The translations under genes were made by a program, and so were the position numbers. Below, in pieces: positions 15,003 through 43,450 of a stretch of 64,000 bases of DNA; position 1 is the stretch's first letter; each line of letters begins with the position of its first letter. The DNA is taken from positions 682,001 through 746,000 of the forward strand of contig NZ_SSNZ01000001.1 of NCBI RefSeq assembly GCF_004801375.1, in the 5' to 3' direction. The notes under the pieces were generated by a model. The model saw nothing but the letters and a program-made list of their open reading frames with translations. It ran no database searches and was not told the DNA's origin. This DNA comes from Flavobacterium supellecticarium. GTDB lineage: Bacteria > Bacteroidota > Bacteroidia > Flavobacteriales > Flavobacteriaceae.

Positions 15003-15063
15003 AAACCTGACAGGTCTTTGAGACTAATAAAAAACCTGTCAGGTTTTTGGAACCTGACAGGTT
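15003..15063. repeat. Triple CCTGWCAGG palindromic repeat
   Basis: Three copies of AACCTGWCAGGTT lie at 15003-15015, 15032-15046 and 15051-15063, in alternating orientation. Copies 2 and 3 form a 13-bp stem with a 5-base loop; copies 1 and 2 can pair instead. Related elements occur at 38611-38641 and 54640-54686, all between convergent gene ends. Confidence 0.75.
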
Positions 15064-28395: not shown

Positions 28396-28418
28396 TTATT
28401 TAGCATTAGTCTAAATAA
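28396..28418 (+). promoter_or_regulatory. 23-bp palindromic operator before the TonB operon (Fur-like geometry)
   Basis: TTATTTAG-CATTAGT-CTAAATAA is a perfect 8-7-8 inverted repeat. It covers the place of the -33 box, 11 bases before the -7 element at 28430, so a bound protein would repress. A core of 19 bp with A/T-rich arms is the geometry of Fur-family sites; the identity of the regulator is inference. Confidence 0.65.
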
Positions 28419-28429
28419 AATAATGATGG

Positions 28430-28437
28430 TATTTTTG
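28430..28437 (+). promoter_or_regulatory. -7 promoter element for the TonB receptor operon
   Basis: TATTTTTG (28430-28437) is a perfect TAnnTTTG element 24 bases before the GTG start at 28462. Confidence 0.6.
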
Positions 28438-28461
28438 TGCCATTAAAAAAACCAAAATAAA

Positions 28462-31191
28462 GTGAGGTTATTATACGTCATTATACTACTCGCCTTCCAA
28501 ACTGTAGTGGCACAAAAACACATTAACGGACAGGTTTTCGATCGTGATACCAAAGAACCGTTACCAAGTGTATTTGTTGTGAATCCCGAAACCAATGATT
28601 GGGCAATTACCGACGAAACGGGCACATTCCAGTTGCGTATGCCCAATACTAAAGAAGTAAGTATTACCTTTAGATTATTAGGAAAACAGGAAACAACCTT
28701 AAACTATAAAAAAGAAAATCTAAATACAAAGATTGTTGTTTTCCTTCAAAAACAGGATTTACGTCTGGATGAAGTGGTCGTTACGGCTCGTAAAGGAAAA
28801 AAATTCTCCGAAATTACCATTGGCCGAGAGGTTATCGAACAGGTACAGGCCTTCTCACTTAATGAAGTACTGGAGCAATTACCCGGACAAGCCATTACCA
28901 ATTTTACCTTAAACGAATTCAAACCGATCGCTTTCCGTACGGTACGCCCTTCTACCGCTGCTAATACCGGTTTTGGAAATAAATCATTCGGAACGGCTAT
29001 AGTTGTCGACGGTATTCCAATTTCGAATAACGAAAATATGCAGTCCTATGGCGGAAATTACGGCCCGCCTTTCTCCCCTAACTTTTTAGGTTTTGGCGAT
29101 CCGTCGTCGTCGTCCGGATTTAACGGTTATTTTTCGAATGCCAATTTTGGTGCCGATTTACGGGAAATTCCGGTGGATAATATCGAAAAAGTAGAAGTCG
29201 TACAAGGAGTTCCATCGGCCAAATATGGCGATCTGACATCCGGTTTGATCAAAATCGAACAAAAAGCCGGTAAATCTCCGTATCGCGTCTATACTTCCTT
29301 ACGCGACGGAACAACCGAATATGGCTTTGCCAAAGGTTTTAAAGTGAACGATAAAATCGGTTTTGTAAACCTTACGGTTAATTATTTAAAATCGAATGCC
29401 GAACCGCGTGTTTCCTATACCGAATACGAACGGATTACTACAAATTTAATGTGGAGCTGGACGAGTAAAAGTAAAAACATCCGCAACTCTTTTTCGGTGG
29501 ATTATGGTTTTAATAACGATAATGTGAATTACGAAGAAGAAGATACCGATAATAAAATTGTAAAAAACAAAAAGAAAGACCTTTCCGTTTCCAATCGTTT
29601 TAAATGGAAATTCAGCGAAAACAGTTTTTTCGATAATCTGGATATCAACGCGAATTTCAGATATAGTGATCAACTTACATATGAATCCAAGTTTGTGAAT
29701 ATTGGTGGTAGTATTGTCGGAACCAGTACCGAAGAAGGTGTTTATTCCGGAACTTATACCCTACCGAGCTATACATCCGTTAAAGCGGTAGAAGGTATTC
29801 CGATTTCCTCTTTTGCGTCGGCCGATTTATACAAAACATTTAACACCGGCGATTGGTCGCATTCGTTATTATTCGGTACCTCTTTCCGAACCAGCGATAA
29901 CAAAGGACGCGGGCGTTTGGGCAGTCCGGAAACGATGATCAGTGCTTTTGCCTCAACAAACGGTGGTTCCGGTCAGGGATTCCGACCGTATAATTATGGC
30001 GAAAACATCCGTGCCGAATACCAGTTTTCGCTATACGCCGAAGACAATATCACCCGAAACTGGGAAAACAGCACTTTTTATATGAATACCGGTGTGCGTT
30101 TGGATAATCAATTTGGTTTTACAACACTGGCACCGCGTATTAACAGTTATTATCAAAACGATAATTTTAAGATTCGCGGTGGTTTCGGAATTACTTCCAA
30201 AGCACCTTCATTAAACCAGATTTATACTGGTCCGCGTTACTATGATGCCGTTTTGGGCGATTATCGTTACCCGGGTTATTACAACCTTGGAATCGTACAG
30301 ACTTTTATTGATTATGCCAATAATAAAGATCTGAAACCAACCAAAAGTATACGTACCGAATTGGGATTTGATTACAAACTACCTTTCGGAAACCTTAATT
30401 TAACCGGTTTTTACAACAAAATGTACGATGGAATTACCAATGAAGGTATCCCAAGTGTACGCGATATGGCCATACTTGACATACAGTTTAACGGTACACA
30501 AACACCAACCTATCAGGTAACAGGTTATACGCCTTTCTATTATTTACAAAGTCGTTTGGTCAACAAATTCGAATCGAAAGACCGGGGATTAGAGTTTTTT
30601 ATGAGTTTTGAAAAAACACCATTTAAAAATATCACCTTCGATATTCAGGGAAGTTATACTGAAACAGTTAATACCGATACCCGCGATTCTTTCGAGCGTA
30701 TCGCCAGTACGACACCAAGACCGGAAAAGATGGCCGTTTTAAAACCGTATGACGAAAATTCTAAAAGCTTCCGATTGGGCGCGAATATCAATTACCACCT
30801 TCCAAAAGTGGGATTGGTAATTGCTGTTCGAAGCGAACATTTTATCATTGATAATACCAATTATAGAAGCGGTAACCGTTTATATGCCTATATCGACGAA
30901 AACTTAAACAAAATAATTATCCCGGAAGCCGAAAGAGATACGCATCCGTTATTACCGTTATTAGCGCAAAACAATGCATTAATCGACCGGTCGTTACAAA
31001 AAGTATTTCACAATTTTCACTTACGTGTTTCCAAAGATTTTAAAAACGGATTCCGTTTTTCATTCTATTCCAATAATTTCCTGGATCTAAAGCAAACGGA
31101 AACATTGATCGACAACGGCGTACCGACCCGACGTCCAAAAGCAGGAATGGTACAACTATCCTTCGGAACCAAAATCGAATATCAATTTTAA
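28462..31191 (+). CDS. TonB-dependent outer-membrane receptor
   Basis: A 909-residue receptor beginning with GTG and a signal peptide (MRLLYVIILLAFQTVVAQ). After it come a carboxypeptidase-regulatory-like beta domain (INGQVFDRDTKEPLPSVFV, residues 20-95), a plug domain (LDEVVVTARKGKKF to VEVVQGVPSAKYGDLTSGLI, about residues 100-270), and a 22-strand-type barrel ending in a C-terminal aromatic (IEYQF). It moves a bulky or scarce ligand across the outer membrane using TonB energy. It heads a four-gene operon with a lipoprotein (DUF4876), another barrel (DUF6850) and a di-haem peroxidase. That set and the palindromic operator suggest metal or haem supply; the ligand is not known. Confidence 0.88.
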   Translation: MRLLYVIILLAFQTVVAQKHINGQVFDRDTKEPLPSVFVVNPETNDWAITDETGTFQLRMPNTKEVSITFRLLGKQETTLNYKKENLNTKIVVFLQKQDLRLDEVVVTARKGKKFSEITIGREVIEQVQAFSLNEVLEQLPGQAITNFTLNEFKPIAFRTVRPSTAANTGFGNKSFGTAIVVDGIPISNNENMQSYGGNYGPPFSPNFLGFGDPSSSSGFNGYFSNANFGADLREIPVDNIEKVEVVQGVPSAKYGDLTSGLIKIEQKAGKSPYRVYTSLRDGTTEYGFAKGFKVNDKIGFVNLTVNYLKSNAEPRVSYTEYERITTNLMWSWTSKSKNIRNSFSVDYGFNNDNVNYEEEDTDNKIVKNKKKDLSVSNRFKWKFSENSFFDNLDINANFRYSDQLTYESKFVNIGGSIVGTSTEEGVYSGTYTLPSYTSVKAVEGIPISSFASADLYKTFNTGDWSHSLLFGTSFRTSDNKGRGRLGSPETMISAFASTNGGSGQGFRPYNYGENIRAEYQFSLYAEDNITRNWENSTFYMNTGVRLDNQFGFTTLAPRINSYYQNDNFKIRGGFGITSKAPSLNQIYTGPRYYDAVLGDYRYPGYYNLGIVQTFIDYANNKDLKPTKSIRTELGFDYKLPFGNLNLTGFYNKMYDGITNEGIPSVRDMAILDIQFNGTQTPTYQVTGYTPFYYLQSRLVNKFESKDRGLEFFMSFEKTPFKNITFDIQGSYTETVNTDTRDSFERIASTTPRPEKMAVLKPYDENSKSFRLGANINYHLPKVGLVIAVRSEHFIIDNTNYRSGNRLYAYIDENLNKIIIPEAERDTHPLLPLLAQNNALIDRSLQKVFHNFHLRVSKDFKNGFRFSFYSNNFLDLKQTETLIDNGVPTRRPKAGMVQLSFGTKIEYQF

Positions 31192-31215: not shown

Positions 31216-32565
31216 ATGAAAAAACTTCTTGTATTACTCAGTGCAGCATTAGCCTTCACATCCTGTTCGGATGATGATTTCGGTAATGCTAATAACGGAC
31301 TACAACCGGTAAACTTTTCGGTAAATCTTAAATACGACCCTATCACGTTTAACGGACAATCGGTTAACGGTGGTTCTGTAATTTTAACCAACACCAATAC
31401 CGGCGATACCTATACTATCGAATCCGGAACCAACGGTATTGCAAATTTCCCTGCAGTAATCCCAGGAACCTATAATATTACAGCTACTAAGACGCTAACC
31501 AGTACTGAATTTAACACACAATTCGGATATACACCGGAAACACAAACCGTATTATTTAACGGTGCGCAGGAACAAGTGATCATCAATGCTAATGTAAACG
31601 CTACGGAATTGAAACTAAAAACGGTTCGTATTGGAGACTTAGTAATCAAACAAATTTCTTATGCCGGTTCGCATGCGCAACAAGGAGCGGTTTTCAGAGA
31701 TCAGTTTATTGAAATCTATAACAACTCGAACGAGACGATCTATGCGGATGGTTTATGTATCGGACAGCTTTACGGAAAAACATCAACTACAACGGCTGCT
31801 TATACTTTAGCTAGCGGTCAGTTTGACTGGAGCAAATCGATTGGTATGACGGCTGGTTCATCGGCGAATACTGATTATGTATATGCTGATTATGTGATCC
31901 GTATTCCGGGTTCGGGAACAACCTACCCGATTTTACCAGGTGAAAGTATCGTAATTGCACAAACCGGAATCAACCACAAATCGCCTTTAGTAGACAACAG
32001 TGGTGAACCGCTTACCGTACAAAATCCGGAACTAACTGTAGATTTAAGTACGGCTGATTTTGAAGTATATTTAGGTGACTATAGATTAGCACTTGGAGAA
32101 GACGTATACCGTTTTGACATTCAGAACCCGGCAGTAACCGATATGGAAATTGCCTATTGGGGAAGACCAGGTTACAGCAGCCCGAACAAAGATTTTCTTA
32201 TGGATAACTTAGGCCGTGACAGCTTTGTAATTTTCCGTGGTGACGATTTAAACAGCTACCAGAATTTCCCGGATCCGTCTATTGCTTCGATTACAAATAC
32301 GACAAAATTCTTTGTTCAGATTCCGAACAATAAAATCATCGATGGGGTAGAATTACAACACTACAACCCAAGTAGCCAACGTCCAAAAATGCTACAATCC
32401 CAAATCGATGCTTCATCTGTTAACTGTGACGCTGCTTATAACTCGCAAGCGGTTTACCGTAAAGTAAAATCGATCGTAAACGGACGTAAGATCTTAGAAG
32501 ACACCAACAACTCTTCTAACGATTTCATAAAACAAAAAGCAAATCCAAGAGGTTTTGCAAACTAG
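31216..32565 (+). CDS. DUF4876 family lipoprotein
   Basis: A 449-residue lipoprotein: signal with lipobox FTSC (Cys about residue 17) followed by SDDDFGNA, a surface-export-like acidic signal as used in Bacteroidota. An Ig-like/carboxypeptidase-regulatory-like segment (residues 30-125; GTYNITATKTL) precedes a lamin-tail-like region (QFIEIYNNSNETIYADGLCIGQLYG, about residues 155-260) and a C-terminal domain ending KANPRGFAN. It matches what is called DUF4876, regularly encoded beside this TonB receptor type. It is probably a surface partner that captures the ligand; this is inference. A terminator hairpin overlaps its stop codon. Confidence 0.8.
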   Translation: MKKLLVLLSAALAFTSCSDDDFGNANNGLQPVNFSVNLKYDPITFNGQSVNGGSVILTNTNTGDTYTIESGTNGIANFPAVIPGTYNITATKTLTSTEFNTQFGYTPETQTVLFNGAQEQVIINANVNATELKLKTVRIGDLVIKQISYAGSHAQQGAVFRDQFIEIYNNSNETIYADGLCIGQLYGKTSTTTAAYTLASGQFDWSKSIGMTAGSSANTDYVYADYVIRIPGSGTTYPILPGESIVIAQTGINHKSPLVDNSGEPLTVQNPELTVDLSTADFEVYLGDYRLALGEDVYRFDIQNPAVTDMEIAYWGRPGYSSPNKDFLMDNLGRDSFVIFRGDDLNSYQNFPDPSIASITNTTKFFVQIPNNKIIDGVELQHYNPSSQRPKMLQSQIDASSVNCDAAYNSQAVYRKVKSIVNGRKILEDTNNSSNDFIKQKANPRGFAN

Positions 32566-32624: not shown

Positions 32625-34187
32625 ATGACTTCAAAAAAAGTACTATTCTATTTTATTCTGTTAGTGAGTTGTGCCGTTCAGGCGCAGCTCACTGATAGTT
32701 TATCGGTACCTCAAAATGTATTCTACAACGACATCCGCCAGCAATTCTGGAAAAACCCGTTGTTTTATACGACACAACATTTGAATGACTTTACGTTGAC
32801 ACAAATCGAATTCAGTCAGAAAAACCTGAATTTAAAACGTGTTCAGACGGCCGACAAAACAACGCAGTACCGTTTCTCCACTCAGGGAATATATAATGTA
32901 AAACCCCGACTACGTTTATTTGGTGGTTTTACATTCGATAAATCGTCTGAAAAAGGACTGGGTTATAACTTTTCGTCCCAACGAACGGAAAATCAAAACG
33001 TATTGTCGCCCAATTATTTCTTTGCGCCCCGAAAAGGAAACTGGGACAATCAGGAATACAATCTTGATGGTGGTTTTGCCTATCAGTTTGACAATCACAT
33101 CCTGTTAGGCGGAAAAGCATTTTATAAAAACGGTAAAAACTACCGTACCAACGATCCGCGACCGGAAATCGAACTGAGTAACTATGGTGGTGAGATTCAA
33201 ACCGGATACCATTTCCGTAACCACAGCCTGATCGTATTTGCCGGAATGTCCAAAAAAACGGAAACCGATAACATTACGTATGTAAACGATGCCGCAAATG
33301 CCCCCGCCTATCCGGAAACCTTTACCCGTTTTTCATCCGGTTATGGCCGTATTATCTTTAACTCGTCATACAACCGTTATATTTTTAATACGATCGATAA
33401 AAACTTTGGCTTTGGCTATCAATACCAAAACAACCGAAACAGCTGGAATGCTTCCTATCGTTATAATAAATCGCTGGAAAGCTTTTACGGCAAAAATGCA
33501 CGCGGTTATGTGTATATTGATGACGAACTAAAGCAGTTTATGTACCGTCTGGTTTCCCATACCACCGACCTGAATTATTTCTATGACGGTGTGGAAAAAG
33601 ACTATAAACTTCGGTTTGGCTACGAAAAGCAAAAAGGAGATAACTTTTCGGTTGTGGAAAACGGACAGAATTACCGTATGAATCTGGATATTTTCTCGTT
33701 TAACAGCGGTGTGATCAAAAAAGATAAAAACCGTGTCGTTTACAGCTTTGAATTCGGAGCCAACTATATGCGTCATAAATACGTCGATTTATTGGGAAGT
33801 ACCGACAAACGATTGAATACACTGGAACTTTCGGCTGCTTTTAACAAAGACCTCTTGTCGAAAGAGAAAAATACACTAAATCTGGCTTTAGGTGTACAAC
33901 ACTATCAGGCGTTGGGTGAAAGTCTGCTTTTTATTCCGATTTCCACATCGAACCTGTCGTTTGCCAATAATGTGATCCAACCGGATCAGGCGTATGATGC
34001 CACTTCAAAATTACGTTCCAATATTATGCTGCAATACCAATACAGCCTTTCTAAAACTAAAAAGTTACGTATTTTTGCAAACTATAATACTCTTGTTGCA
34101 ATAGGTGATCAATACAAAACCTATACAACGGATTACAATACCACAGCGAGTACCTATTTTAACGGTGGGATCTCGATAATTTATTAA
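32625..34187 (+). CDS. DUF6850-family outer-membrane beta-barrel protein
   Basis: A 520-residue protein with a signal peptide (MTSKKVLFYFILLVSCAVQAQ). The rest is an alternating hydrophobic/polar strand pattern with frequent aromatic ends (YRFSTQGIYNVKPRLRLFGG; NYNTLVAIGDQY), closing at a C-terminal strand ISIIY. This is a beta-barrel outer-membrane protein; placement beside TonB receptor and DUF4876 genes fits the DUF6850 family. It probably forms part of the same uptake or surface complex. It is followed by the peroxidase gene after 2 bases. Confidence 0.78.
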   Translation: MTSKKVLFYFILLVSCAVQAQLTDSLSVPQNVFYNDIRQQFWKNPLFYTTQHLNDFTLTQIEFSQKNLNLKRVQTADKTTQYRFSTQGIYNVKPRLRLFGGFTFDKSSEKGLGYNFSSQRTENQNVLSPNYFFAPRKGNWDNQEYNLDGGFAYQFDNHILLGGKAFYKNGKNYRTNDPRPEIELSNYGGEIQTGYHFRNHSLIVFAGMSKKTETDNITYVNDAANAPAYPETFTRFSSGYGRIIFNSSYNRYIFNTIDKNFGFGYQYQNNRNSWNASYRYNKSLESFYGKNARGYVYIDDELKQFMYRLVSHTTDLNYFYDGVEKDYKLRFGYEKQKGDNFSVVENGQNYRMNLDIFSFNSGVIKKDKNRVVYSFEFGANYMRHKYVDLLGSTDKRLNTLELSAAFNKDLLSKEKNTLNLALGVQHYQALGESLLFIPISTSNLSFANNVIQPDQAYDATSKLRSNIMLQYQYSLSKTKKLRIFANYNTLVAIGDQYKTYTTDYNTTASTYFNGGISIIY

Positions 34188-34189
34188 GT

Positions 34190-35335
34190 ATGAAAAAGAT
34201 TATTGGATTTACAGTCCTTAGTTTTTTATTCGTCGGACTGGTTTCTCTAAAAAGCAATAAAGACGATGAAAAGTATTATTCGATAGCCGATCTGAAAAAA
34301 ATATACAGCAGCGGCGATGTGAGCACATGGCCAAAGCCAACTGTCGATAGTAGCGTTGTAGATTTTCAGGATTTAGGTGTATTGCCTAAGGTGAAGTTTC
34401 CAGCCGAAAATCCGTATTCCGAAGCCAAAAGAGACCTTGGAAAAATATTGTTCTTTGATCCGAGATTGTCCAAATCCGGTCAGATTTCGTGTGCTTCCTG
34501 TCATGATCCCGAATTAGGATGGGGCGACGGAAAACGAGTATCCCACGGACACGACCGTACGCCGGGAACCCGAAACTCCAAACCGATCATCAACGTAGCC
34601 TACTCCACTATCTTTTTTTGGGACGGACGTGCGGCCAGTTTGGAAGATCAGGCGCGTTTCCCGATTGTCGATACCAAGGAAATGAACAACCACATGGATA
34701 TTGCGGTTAAAACGATCAAAAAAATAAAAGGGTATCAGCCGCTTTTCCAAAAGGCTTTCGGCGATGAAAAGGTAACCGAAGAGAAAATTTTTAAAGCCAT
34801 TGCCACTTTCGAACGCACCGTTGTGAGTCGTAAGAGTCGTTTTGATAAATTTATCGAAGGCGATTCAACACAATTATCCGATAAGGAAGTAGCCGGTTTA
34901 CACCTGTTCCGTACCAAGGCCCGATGCATTAACTGTCATAATTCGGTTTTATTTTCTGATAATCAGTTTCACAATGCCGGTTTAACGTACTACGGTCGTA
35001 AATACGAAGATTTAGGACGTTATAACATTACCAAAAATGCCGACGATGTGGGTAAATTCCGAACGCCTTCCCTACGTGAAGTTGGAAAAACCGGACCGTA
35101 TATGCACAATGGTCTTTTCCCGGAACTACGCGGTGTTTTAAATCTGTATAATGCCGGTATGCCCAATTTAAAACCAAAAGGCGAACAGGTAAACGACAAA
35201 CTGTTTCCGAAAACCTCACCTTTACTGAAAAAACTGGAACTAAATAAAGAAGAACTCGATGCTTTGGAAGCGTTTCTTCAGAGCATCACTTCTGTGATCT
35301 ACCGGGAACCTGCACCGGAAAAACTGCCGGGATAA
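34190..35335 (+). CDS. Di-haem cytochrome c peroxidase (CcpA/MauG family)
   Basis: A 381-residue exported protein with an N-terminal hydrophobic leader (IIGFTVLSFLFVGLVSL). Two CxxCH haem sites are seen: CASCHDPELGWGDG (about residue 101) and CINCHNSVLF (about residue 245). Other family marks are LGKILFFDPRLSKSGQ before haem 1 and RTPSLREVGKTGPYMHNG near the C terminus. Family members reduce H2O2 with electrons from cytochromes or, in MauG-like forms, oxidise proteins or cofactors. In this operon it could act on the imported compound or protect it from peroxide; that is inference. The 166-base gap after it has only a weak 6-bp hairpin. Confidence 0.88.
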   Translation: MKKIIGFTVLSFLFVGLVSLKSNKDDEKYYSIADLKKIYSSGDVSTWPKPTVDSSVVDFQDLGVLPKVKFPAENPYSEAKRDLGKILFFDPRLSKSGQISCASCHDPELGWGDGKRVSHGHDRTPGTRNSKPIINVAYSTIFFWDGRAASLEDQARFPIVDTKEMNNHMDIAVKTIKKIKGYQPLFQKAFGDEKVTEEKIFKAIATFERTVVSRKSRFDKFIEGDSTQLSDKEVAGLHLFRTKARCINCHNSVLFSDNQFHNAGLTYYGRKYEDLGRYNITKNADDVGKFRTPSLREVGKTGPYMHNGLFPELRGVLNLYNAGMPNLKPKGEQVNDKLFPKTSPLLKKLELNKEELDALEAFLQSITSVIYREPAPEKLPG

Positions 35336-38610: not shown

Positions 38611-38641
38611 CACCTGACAGGTTTTCGAAACCTGTCAGGTG
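38611..38641. repeat. CCTGACAGG palindrome (14-bp stem)
   Basis: CACCTGACAGGTTT, loop TCG, AAACCTGTCAGGTG: a perfect 14-bp stem with a 3-base loop between the gene fragment (+) and osmC (-). Same family as 15003-15063 and 54640-54686. It may serve as terminator for osmC. Confidence 0.8.
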
Positions 38642-42454: not shown

Positions 42455-43450
42455 ATGAGCCACGATAAAATACGCGATCACATTGACTGTTTAAATTGCG
42501 GAAAAATTGTTACCGAAAAATACTGCCCAAACTGCGGTCAGGATAACACCGAATCCCGAAAGTCATTTCACTATCTGTTTACGCATTTTGTAGAAGATTT
42601 TACGCATTATGACAATGCCTTTTGGAAAACCATGAAATATTTGTTGTTTCGTCCTTCGCGCCTTACCCGTGAATATTTGGCCGGTAAACGAAAACACTAT
42701 GTGGCTCCTGTAAAGCTGTATATTTTTATCAGTTTTATAACTTTTTTCCTACCTGGAGTACTTCCGGAAATTGATCACGATAACGAAACCCAACGTGAGG
42801 TACGTAAGGCAGAAGCCCACAAATATGATTACAACTACGAAGAAGCCGATTCGATTCTAAAAGCAAGCACAGGTAGAAAAATCCCAACCATAGGCAACTA
42901 TAGTTCGGTAAAAGAATACGATTCGATACAAAAGACGCTTCCGGCAGCCAAAAAAGGTTCCGGAATAATGGGAAAATTTGAAAAAAGGGTAGCCGAAATA
43001 AACGAAAAATATACTACAAAAGAAATCATCGAAAAATTCAAGGAATCATTTATTCATAACCTTCCAAAAGTACTTTTCCTCTATCTGCCGTTATTTGCTT
43101 TTTCGCTATGGCTTTTTCACAATAAAAAGAAATGGTACTATTTTGAGCACGGTATTTTTACGCTCCATTATTTTTCATTCCTGCTACTCAACACCATGCT
43201 GTTTCTAACAGTGAGCTGGTTGCTGAAACTAATGGGTGATAATGGCTTTTTAACATTTTTAGAGTTTATACTAACCTGTATTTATCTGGGTTGGGGCTTT
43301 ACCTACTTTTTTAAAGCACACCGTTTTTTTTACGGCGAGAAACGTTATATCTCAAATCTAAAGAGTTTGGTTCTGTTTTTTGTCAATTCGTTCCTTATAA
43401 CGGTTGTACTGCTACTGTTTATCATTTATACCCTATTATACCTTCATTAA
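42455..43450 (+). CDS. DUF3667 membrane protein with zinc ribbon
   Basis: A 331-residue protein. An N-terminal zinc ribbon has two pairs, CLNCG (residue 12) and CPNCGQD (residue 25). The DUF3667 core follows: HYLFTHFVEDFTHYDNAFWK, LLFRPSRLTREYLAGKRKHY, then a first membrane helix (LYIFISFITFFLPGV). A charged cytosolic insert (residues 110-200) separates it from four more helices at the C terminus (about residues 205-330). Function of the family is unknown. It is monocistronic, ended by the 43466-43506 hairpin. Confidence 0.85.
   Translation: MSHDKIRDHIDCLNCGKIVTEKYCPNCGQDNTESRKSFHYLFTHFVEDFTHYDNAFWKTMKYLLFRPSRLTREYLAGKRKHYVAPVKLYIFISFITFFLPGVLPEIDHDNETQREVRKAEAHKYDYNYEEADSILKASTGRKIPTIGNYSSVKEYDSIQKTLPAAKKGSGIMGKFEKRVAEINEKYTTKEIIEKFKESFIHNLPKVLFLYLPLFAFSLWLFHNKKKWYYFEHGIFTLHYFSFLLLNTMLFLTVSWLLKLMGDNGFLTFLEFILTCIYLGWGFTYFFKAHRFFYGEKRYISNLKSLVLFFVNSFLITVVLLLFIIYTLLYLH

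Follow-up and report, generated by a model that had tools for sequence, protein, structure and literature searches.

Fur boxes have been described for the order Flavobacteriales in Riemerella anatipestifer. According to the accessible parts of the literature, the box of this organism is ATTTAGAATTATTCTAAAT, which is, like the site analyzed here, a 19-bp inverted repeat of the form ATTTAG-N7-CTAAAT, and Fur was used in gel shifts on four promoters with predicted boxes (PMC5609570). As in our locus, these boxes are located less than 100 bp from the start codon, and TonB receptor genes are among the targets (PMC5609570). Later publications on R. anatipestifer describe rhuB as iron- and Fur-dependent, with the box ATTTAGAATTATCCTAAAT and a gel shift, while the transcript of rhuH was increased in a fur mutant, in a box mutant and at low iron (PMC10986502, PMC11967795). 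For TonB loci with DUF4876 genes, responses to iron shortage have been reported for PG1019-22 of Porphyromonas gingivalis (20.8-214.5-fold) and for BT3625-33 of Bacteroides thetaiotaomicron (36.7-128-fold), the response of BT1933-39 being only 3.5-7.4-fold (PMC10434189). PG1019-22, BT1938-39 and BT3631-33 resemble the operon analyzed here by the combination of a TonB receptor with a DUF4876 protein; unlike in our operon, a di-haem enzyme is absent from their description in the parts of the paper available, and the term 'fur box' has 0 occurrences in its main text (PMC10434189).

In this study, we analyzed a palindrome in a 64-kb stretch of DNA of Flavobacterium supellecticarium, referred to below as the window. 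Comparison with published boxes, orthologous loci and the remaining genome indicates that this palindrome is very probably a Fur operator mediating iron-dependent repression of an outer-membrane uptake operon of four genes. All features of the locus are compiled in Table 1.

Table 1. Predicted features of the operon and its control region, with box-like sites of Sphingobacterium loci for comparison
Feature	Position	Strand	Basis or remark
Fur box (predicted), perfect 8-N7-8 palindrome TTATTTAG-CATTAGT-CTAAATAA	28396..28418	.	Sequence, ortholog and matrix comparison
19-bp core ATTTAGCATTAGTCTAAAT	28398-28416		17/19 positions equal to published box
-7 promoter element TATTTTTG	28430..28437	+	Fits TAnnTTTG; transcription start expected at ~28440
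TonB-dependent receptor, CarboxypepD_reg_2 extension, GTG start at 28462	28462..31191	+	Family search
DUF4876 protein, probable lipoprotein (Cys17)	31216..32565	+	Cys17 in 68/70 readable loci
DUF6850 protein, predicted outer-membrane beta-barrel	32625..34187	+	Family search, model
Di-haem enzyme (CCP_MauG), two CXXCH motifs, Tyr320	34190..35335	+	Pfam, structure-sequence alignments
Box-like sites in Sphingobacterium loci	L066:5245, L067:5250, L076:5263, L087:5108; L075 and L077: 38 bp before 5301		

A preliminary description of the window had reported a perfect 23-bp palindrome placed over the -33 position of a promoter with a perfect -7 element, and these details hold. The palindrome TTATTTAGCATTAGTCTAAATAA was recovered with exactly the sequence and coordinates given there, both 8-bp arms being perfect and the spacer being 7 bp long. 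The element TATTTTTG matches TAnnTTTG, which we take to be the -7 consensus, and the centre of the palindrome at 28407 is located 23 nt 5′ of this element, i.e. at about -33 if transcription begins near 28440. By inspection of the promoter region, no TTG -33 element was seen around the palindrome. The 19-bp core starts 64 bp upstream of the GTG, and 13 bp separate its end from the -7 element, which places the site less than 100 bp from the start codon and at the predicted promoter. In 27 of 34 hand-picked regions, a set that includes the window and has no chance control, TAnnTTTG was present in the 105 bp upstream, extended by a few bases. A sigma-70 promoter scan was uninformative, with 21 sites vs 22.3 in shuffled sequences, and was rejected as evidence.

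The 19-bp core ATTTAGCATTAGTCTAAAT is equal to the published R. anatipestifer box at 17 of 19 positions and differs from the consensus at two spacer letters (C at position 7 and G at position 12). For a quantitative comparison, a symmetric Fur matrix was built from all 11 sites in the table of PMC5609570, with weak sites kept and none taken from the genome under study. With 18.7 bits, the palindrome had the highest score in the window, followed by a runner-up with 12.4 bits; in 30 simulated windows the best score was 17.8 bits and none reached 18.7 bits. A match to the Fur matrix by chance is unlikely. A further candidate box (10.7 bits) was observed at position 43450, its first base being also the final base of a 331-aa ORF; the 420-aa ORF that follows was read as a putative peptidase.

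Family searches confirmed the gene content that had been assigned to the operon behind the palindrome, namely TonB receptor, DUF4876, DUF6850 and di-haem enzyme. The model of the DUF4876 protein (pLDDT 85) had BT_1938 (4q1z) as closest solved structure (E 8.8e-24; TM-score 0.50), and for the model of the DUF6850 protein (pLDDT 90) Foldseek returned TonB receptors and FadL with query TM-scores of 0.24-0.40. On the basis of these models, TonB receptor, DUF4876 protein and the predicted DUF6850 barrel would fit a function in outer-membrane uptake.

To find orthologous operons, a DUF4876 search was used, which matched 109 loci, of which 80 were kept. By tblastn, DUF4876 was detected in all 80 of these, the receptor in all but one (79), the di-haem enzyme in 78 and DUF6850 in 57, in the same gene order; the count for DUF6850 is largely a limit of tblastn, because all 38 third-position proteins sampled (window included) match the DUF6850 family. 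Six loci lacking upstream DNA or the receptor start (L017, L025, L029, L041, L047, L082) were left out, and in the remaining 74 loci the 120 bp before the receptor were scored, with 375 upstream regions of other genes of the same loci as controls. Scores of at least 13 bits were obtained for 46 of the 74 orthologous upstream regions vs 7 of the 375 controls, and scores of at least 14 bits for 38/74 vs 4/375, counts which overstate independence since some of the 74 loci are closely related to one another. Among the controls that reached 13 bits, one site, located 41 bp upstream of the L066 sigma gene, is probably a true box. The preliminary description had proposed to look for the palindrome before orthologous operons, and the outcome was positive for these 46, with 28 of the 74 upstream regions scoring below 13 bits and 14 of these below 3 bits.

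The sites before the orthologous receptors varied in strength and position. Ten of the 46 positive upstream regions carry a weak site of the Flavobacterium johnsoniae type (13.1-14.1 bits); across the whole F. johnsoniae group this site, ATTTTTATTTATTCTAATT and similar, scored 8.2-14.1 bits and was located just 3′ of TAnnTTTG in three of the four upstream regions displayed. The best match of the DUF4876 search (L016) has a half-degenerate site, with one half kept, at the equivalent position (7.9 bits); the receptor upstream region of L063 scored 8.0 bits. Five Pedobacter loci (L061, L073, L085, L090, L092) have a pair of boxes at about -78 and -18, roughly 60 bp from each other, and an exact TAnnTTTG was not found in their upstream regions. 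In six Sphingobacterium loci the receptor upstream region scored no higher than about 0, and in these loci a site of 10.7-19.9 bits starts 38-41 bp before an upstream gene of sigma-factor size; L066 is the sole Sphingobacterium locus in which ECF sigma and FecR were confirmed by Pfam. In the other eight of the 14 loci below 3 bits, by name mostly Chitinophagales (L059, L062, L069, L071, L072, L074, L080, L093), no site was found near the operon, the sigma gene upstream having been scored separately in L093 only; L059, L072 and L074 contain a 12.8-13.7-bit site elsewhere in the locus. Judging by these sequences, a single Fur box type may be in use from Flavobacteriia through Pedobacter, with the site shifted to the sigma-factor-sized gene in Sphingobacterium.

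Within the genus, a search with receptor residues 1-300 (E 1e-40) found the receptor in 5 of 121 genomes, the own genome included. Among the four other loci, one is cut at a contig end and three have a site of the F. johnsoniae type with 8.2, 9.2 and 14.1 bits, and due to these weaker sites the same-genus loci added little as extra support. Such a patchy occurrence in the genus of a receptor whose operon occurs throughout the phylum suggests loss or transfer.

The genome contains one Fur-family gene (E 3.3e-27), and the best solved relatives of the encoded protein are Fur proteins. For the search of further sites, the consensus ATTTAGANTNANTCTAAAT was used, which was picked after the exact palindrome search, the published box and the ortholog sites were known. 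Allowing at most two mismatches, 14 sites were found in the genome vs 3 for the reversed control, while matching at three mismatches was not used, as 64 sites vs 56 in the reversed control are no real excess. One of the 14 sites is the palindrome of the window. Others are located at the divergent gene pair of a TonB plug protein and DUF6607, between HemA (glutamyl-tRNA reductase) and a divergent AraC-type regulator that is closer to the site, and at feoAB, where a 77-aa ORF, read as putative FeoA, is followed by FeoB. Two more, one before DUF4856 and one between Porin_O_P and HTTM genes, are each 1.4-1.6 kb away from an imelysin gene, so that both imelysin loci of the genome have a consensus site. 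The preliminary description had proposed to look for the palindrome at iron genes, and at feoAB, the two imelysin loci, TonB/DUF6607 and hemA the outcome was positive. The tie to iron is less clear for sites at genes of an ankyrin protein, an outer-membrane barrel family protein, a cytochrome c and a 118-aa cysteine-rich protein; in the available part of the R. anatipestifer literature, the neighbours given for the iron-induced receptor B739_0173 include an 'Ankyrin' gene. No tie to iron is evident for sites at NuoA and at GEVED and FG-GAP surface proteins, and the last of the 14 sites is within a gene. The 118-aa cysteine-rich protein (L099:1116-1472), which has no Pfam family, adjoins a good Fur box-like site of 18.7 bits and is a candidate iron protein.

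Taken together, the identity of 17/19 positions with the published box, the first rank in the matrix scan and the recurrence at iron genes and before orthologous operons support the earlier view that the palindrome is a Fur-type site. In the proposed model, Fur loaded with ferrous iron as co-repressor would occupy the 19-bp box over the -33 region when iron is plentiful, and the dimer bound there would exclude RNA polymerase from the promoter, i.e. repression would occur by occlusion. When iron is scarce, Fur would be released and the genes of the TonB receptor, the DUF4876 and DUF6850 proteins and the di-haem enzyme would be expressed, presumably as one transcript. If the operon is under Fur control, its cargo therefore points to iron, and the operon product would take up an iron source, either a ferric complex or haem.

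Other explanations of the palindrome were weighed against this model. The window contains five perfect 8-N7-8 palindromes, as many as the maximum of 30 first-order Markov simulations (mean 1.6), and bare 8-N7-8 palindromy is unremarkable here; because of these five palindromes, palindrome counts alone were dropped as evidence. The perfect palindromes at 15037-15059 and 38615-38637 have CAGGTTTT...AACCTG in common and could represent terminators or copies of an intergenic repeat. A search of the window at up to three mismatches likewise leaves room for chance, with the palindrome as sole match and a mean of 1.6 in shuffled sequences; the whole genome has no second exact copy of the 16 specified bases. 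It is nevertheless highly improbable that the palindrome is a functionless AT-rich chance sequence, as it agrees with an independently published box, has a top matrix score in the window that no simulated window reached, and has similar counterparts ahead of most of the orthologous operons scored.

A site of this metalloregulator-like form might also belong to a regulator other than Fur. The foremost candidate would be the DtxR/MntR-family protein, with manganese or iron as its metal; its gene, the only one of this family in the genome, shares a contig with the feo site and is separated from it by about 5 kb. This assignment appears improbable, since the accessible R. anatipestifer literature reports binding of purified Fur to the same motif and derepression of genes in fur mutants of this member of the Flavobacteriales, and since in our genome the motif is found also at feoAB, two imelysin loci, a TonB receptor gene and hemA. 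The arrangement in Sphingobacterium, with box-like sites in front of the sigma-factor-sized gene, recalls Escherichia coli, where Fur stands over fecIR, and would allow Fur to act solely via an ECF sigma/FecR pair, leaving the box at the structural operon vestigial. In the window, however, the next gene upstream is a divergent LigB-family gene, no sigma/FecR pair was found beside the operon, and the box is at the operon's own expected promoter, making this alternative extremely improbable.

The di-haem enzyme encoded by the fourth gene was compared with MauG, which serves amine oxidation, and MbnH, which serves copper uptake and makes kynurenine in MbnP. Over the whole protein, scores were 3.8e-52 for 1iqc, 2.5e-39 for 6e1c ('Di-heme enzyme'), which we take to be MbnH, and about 1e-22 for MauG (3l4m and others). 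The overall sequence is closest to classical cytochrome c peroxidases and not to MauG or MbnH, for which reason the enzyme was not classed as a MauG/MbnH member. The C-terminal third (residues 277-381) alone aligned nearly at full length with 6e1c (1.2e-11) and MauG (1.5e-9), whereas with classical peroxidases only its first half was aligned. Tyr320 aligns with MauG chain residue 294, where alignment confidence is low, and with a Tyr of 6e1c; in having this Tyr the enzyme is like both proteins, while the cytochrome c peroxidases 3hq8 and 4aal have a Met. In MauG, Tyr294 is a haem ligand and takes the place of Met as axial ligand of the high-potential haem. A Tyr is found at the Tyr320 position in all 77 readable loci of the 80, and because of this conservation a protein-modifying role is thinkable.

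Following the model of oxidative maturation given by MbnH acting on MbnP in copper uptake, the enzyme could oxidise an envelope-exposed partner (DUF4876, barrel or receptor) and thereby build a metal-binding site, so that Fur-controlled iron uptake would depend on maturation; drawn by analogy, this proposal is tentative and in our view rather unlikely. A protein-modifying role is opposed by the overall likeness to peroxidases and by Trp205 of DUF4876, which is also present in BT_1938. Trp205 is invariant in 80/80 loci, but was discarded as a target of the di-haem enzyme, since the BT_1938 alignment also has a Trp and no di-haem enzyme is named for the BT_1938 locus in the available part of PMC10434189; judged from these alignments, Trp205 does not seem to track the presence of the enzyme.

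By this analysis, a widely kept, uncharacterised Bacteroidota operon of TonB receptor, DUF4876, DUF6850 and di-haem enzyme is placed under predicted Fur control, and the MauG-type Tyr in the linked enzyme raises the question of oxidative maturation in iron uptake. Literature searches on MbnH/MbnP, on MauG with TonB and on the Fur box in Flavobacterium gave no account of the four-gene operon among the matches listed, and the assignment of the operon to Fur as well as the MauG-type Tyr of its enzyme may be new. With respect to the described enzymes, the locus differs in the candidate partner protein, as DUF4876 belongs to another family than the partners of MauG and MbnH. With respect to the operator, the flavobacterial variant that its sequence was suggested to define is not a new one, as this box type is already published for R. 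anatipestifer (PMC5609570, PMC10986502, PMC11967795). The predicted operator is thus not a new kind of switch, but an ordinary and well-supported further example of the published box type.
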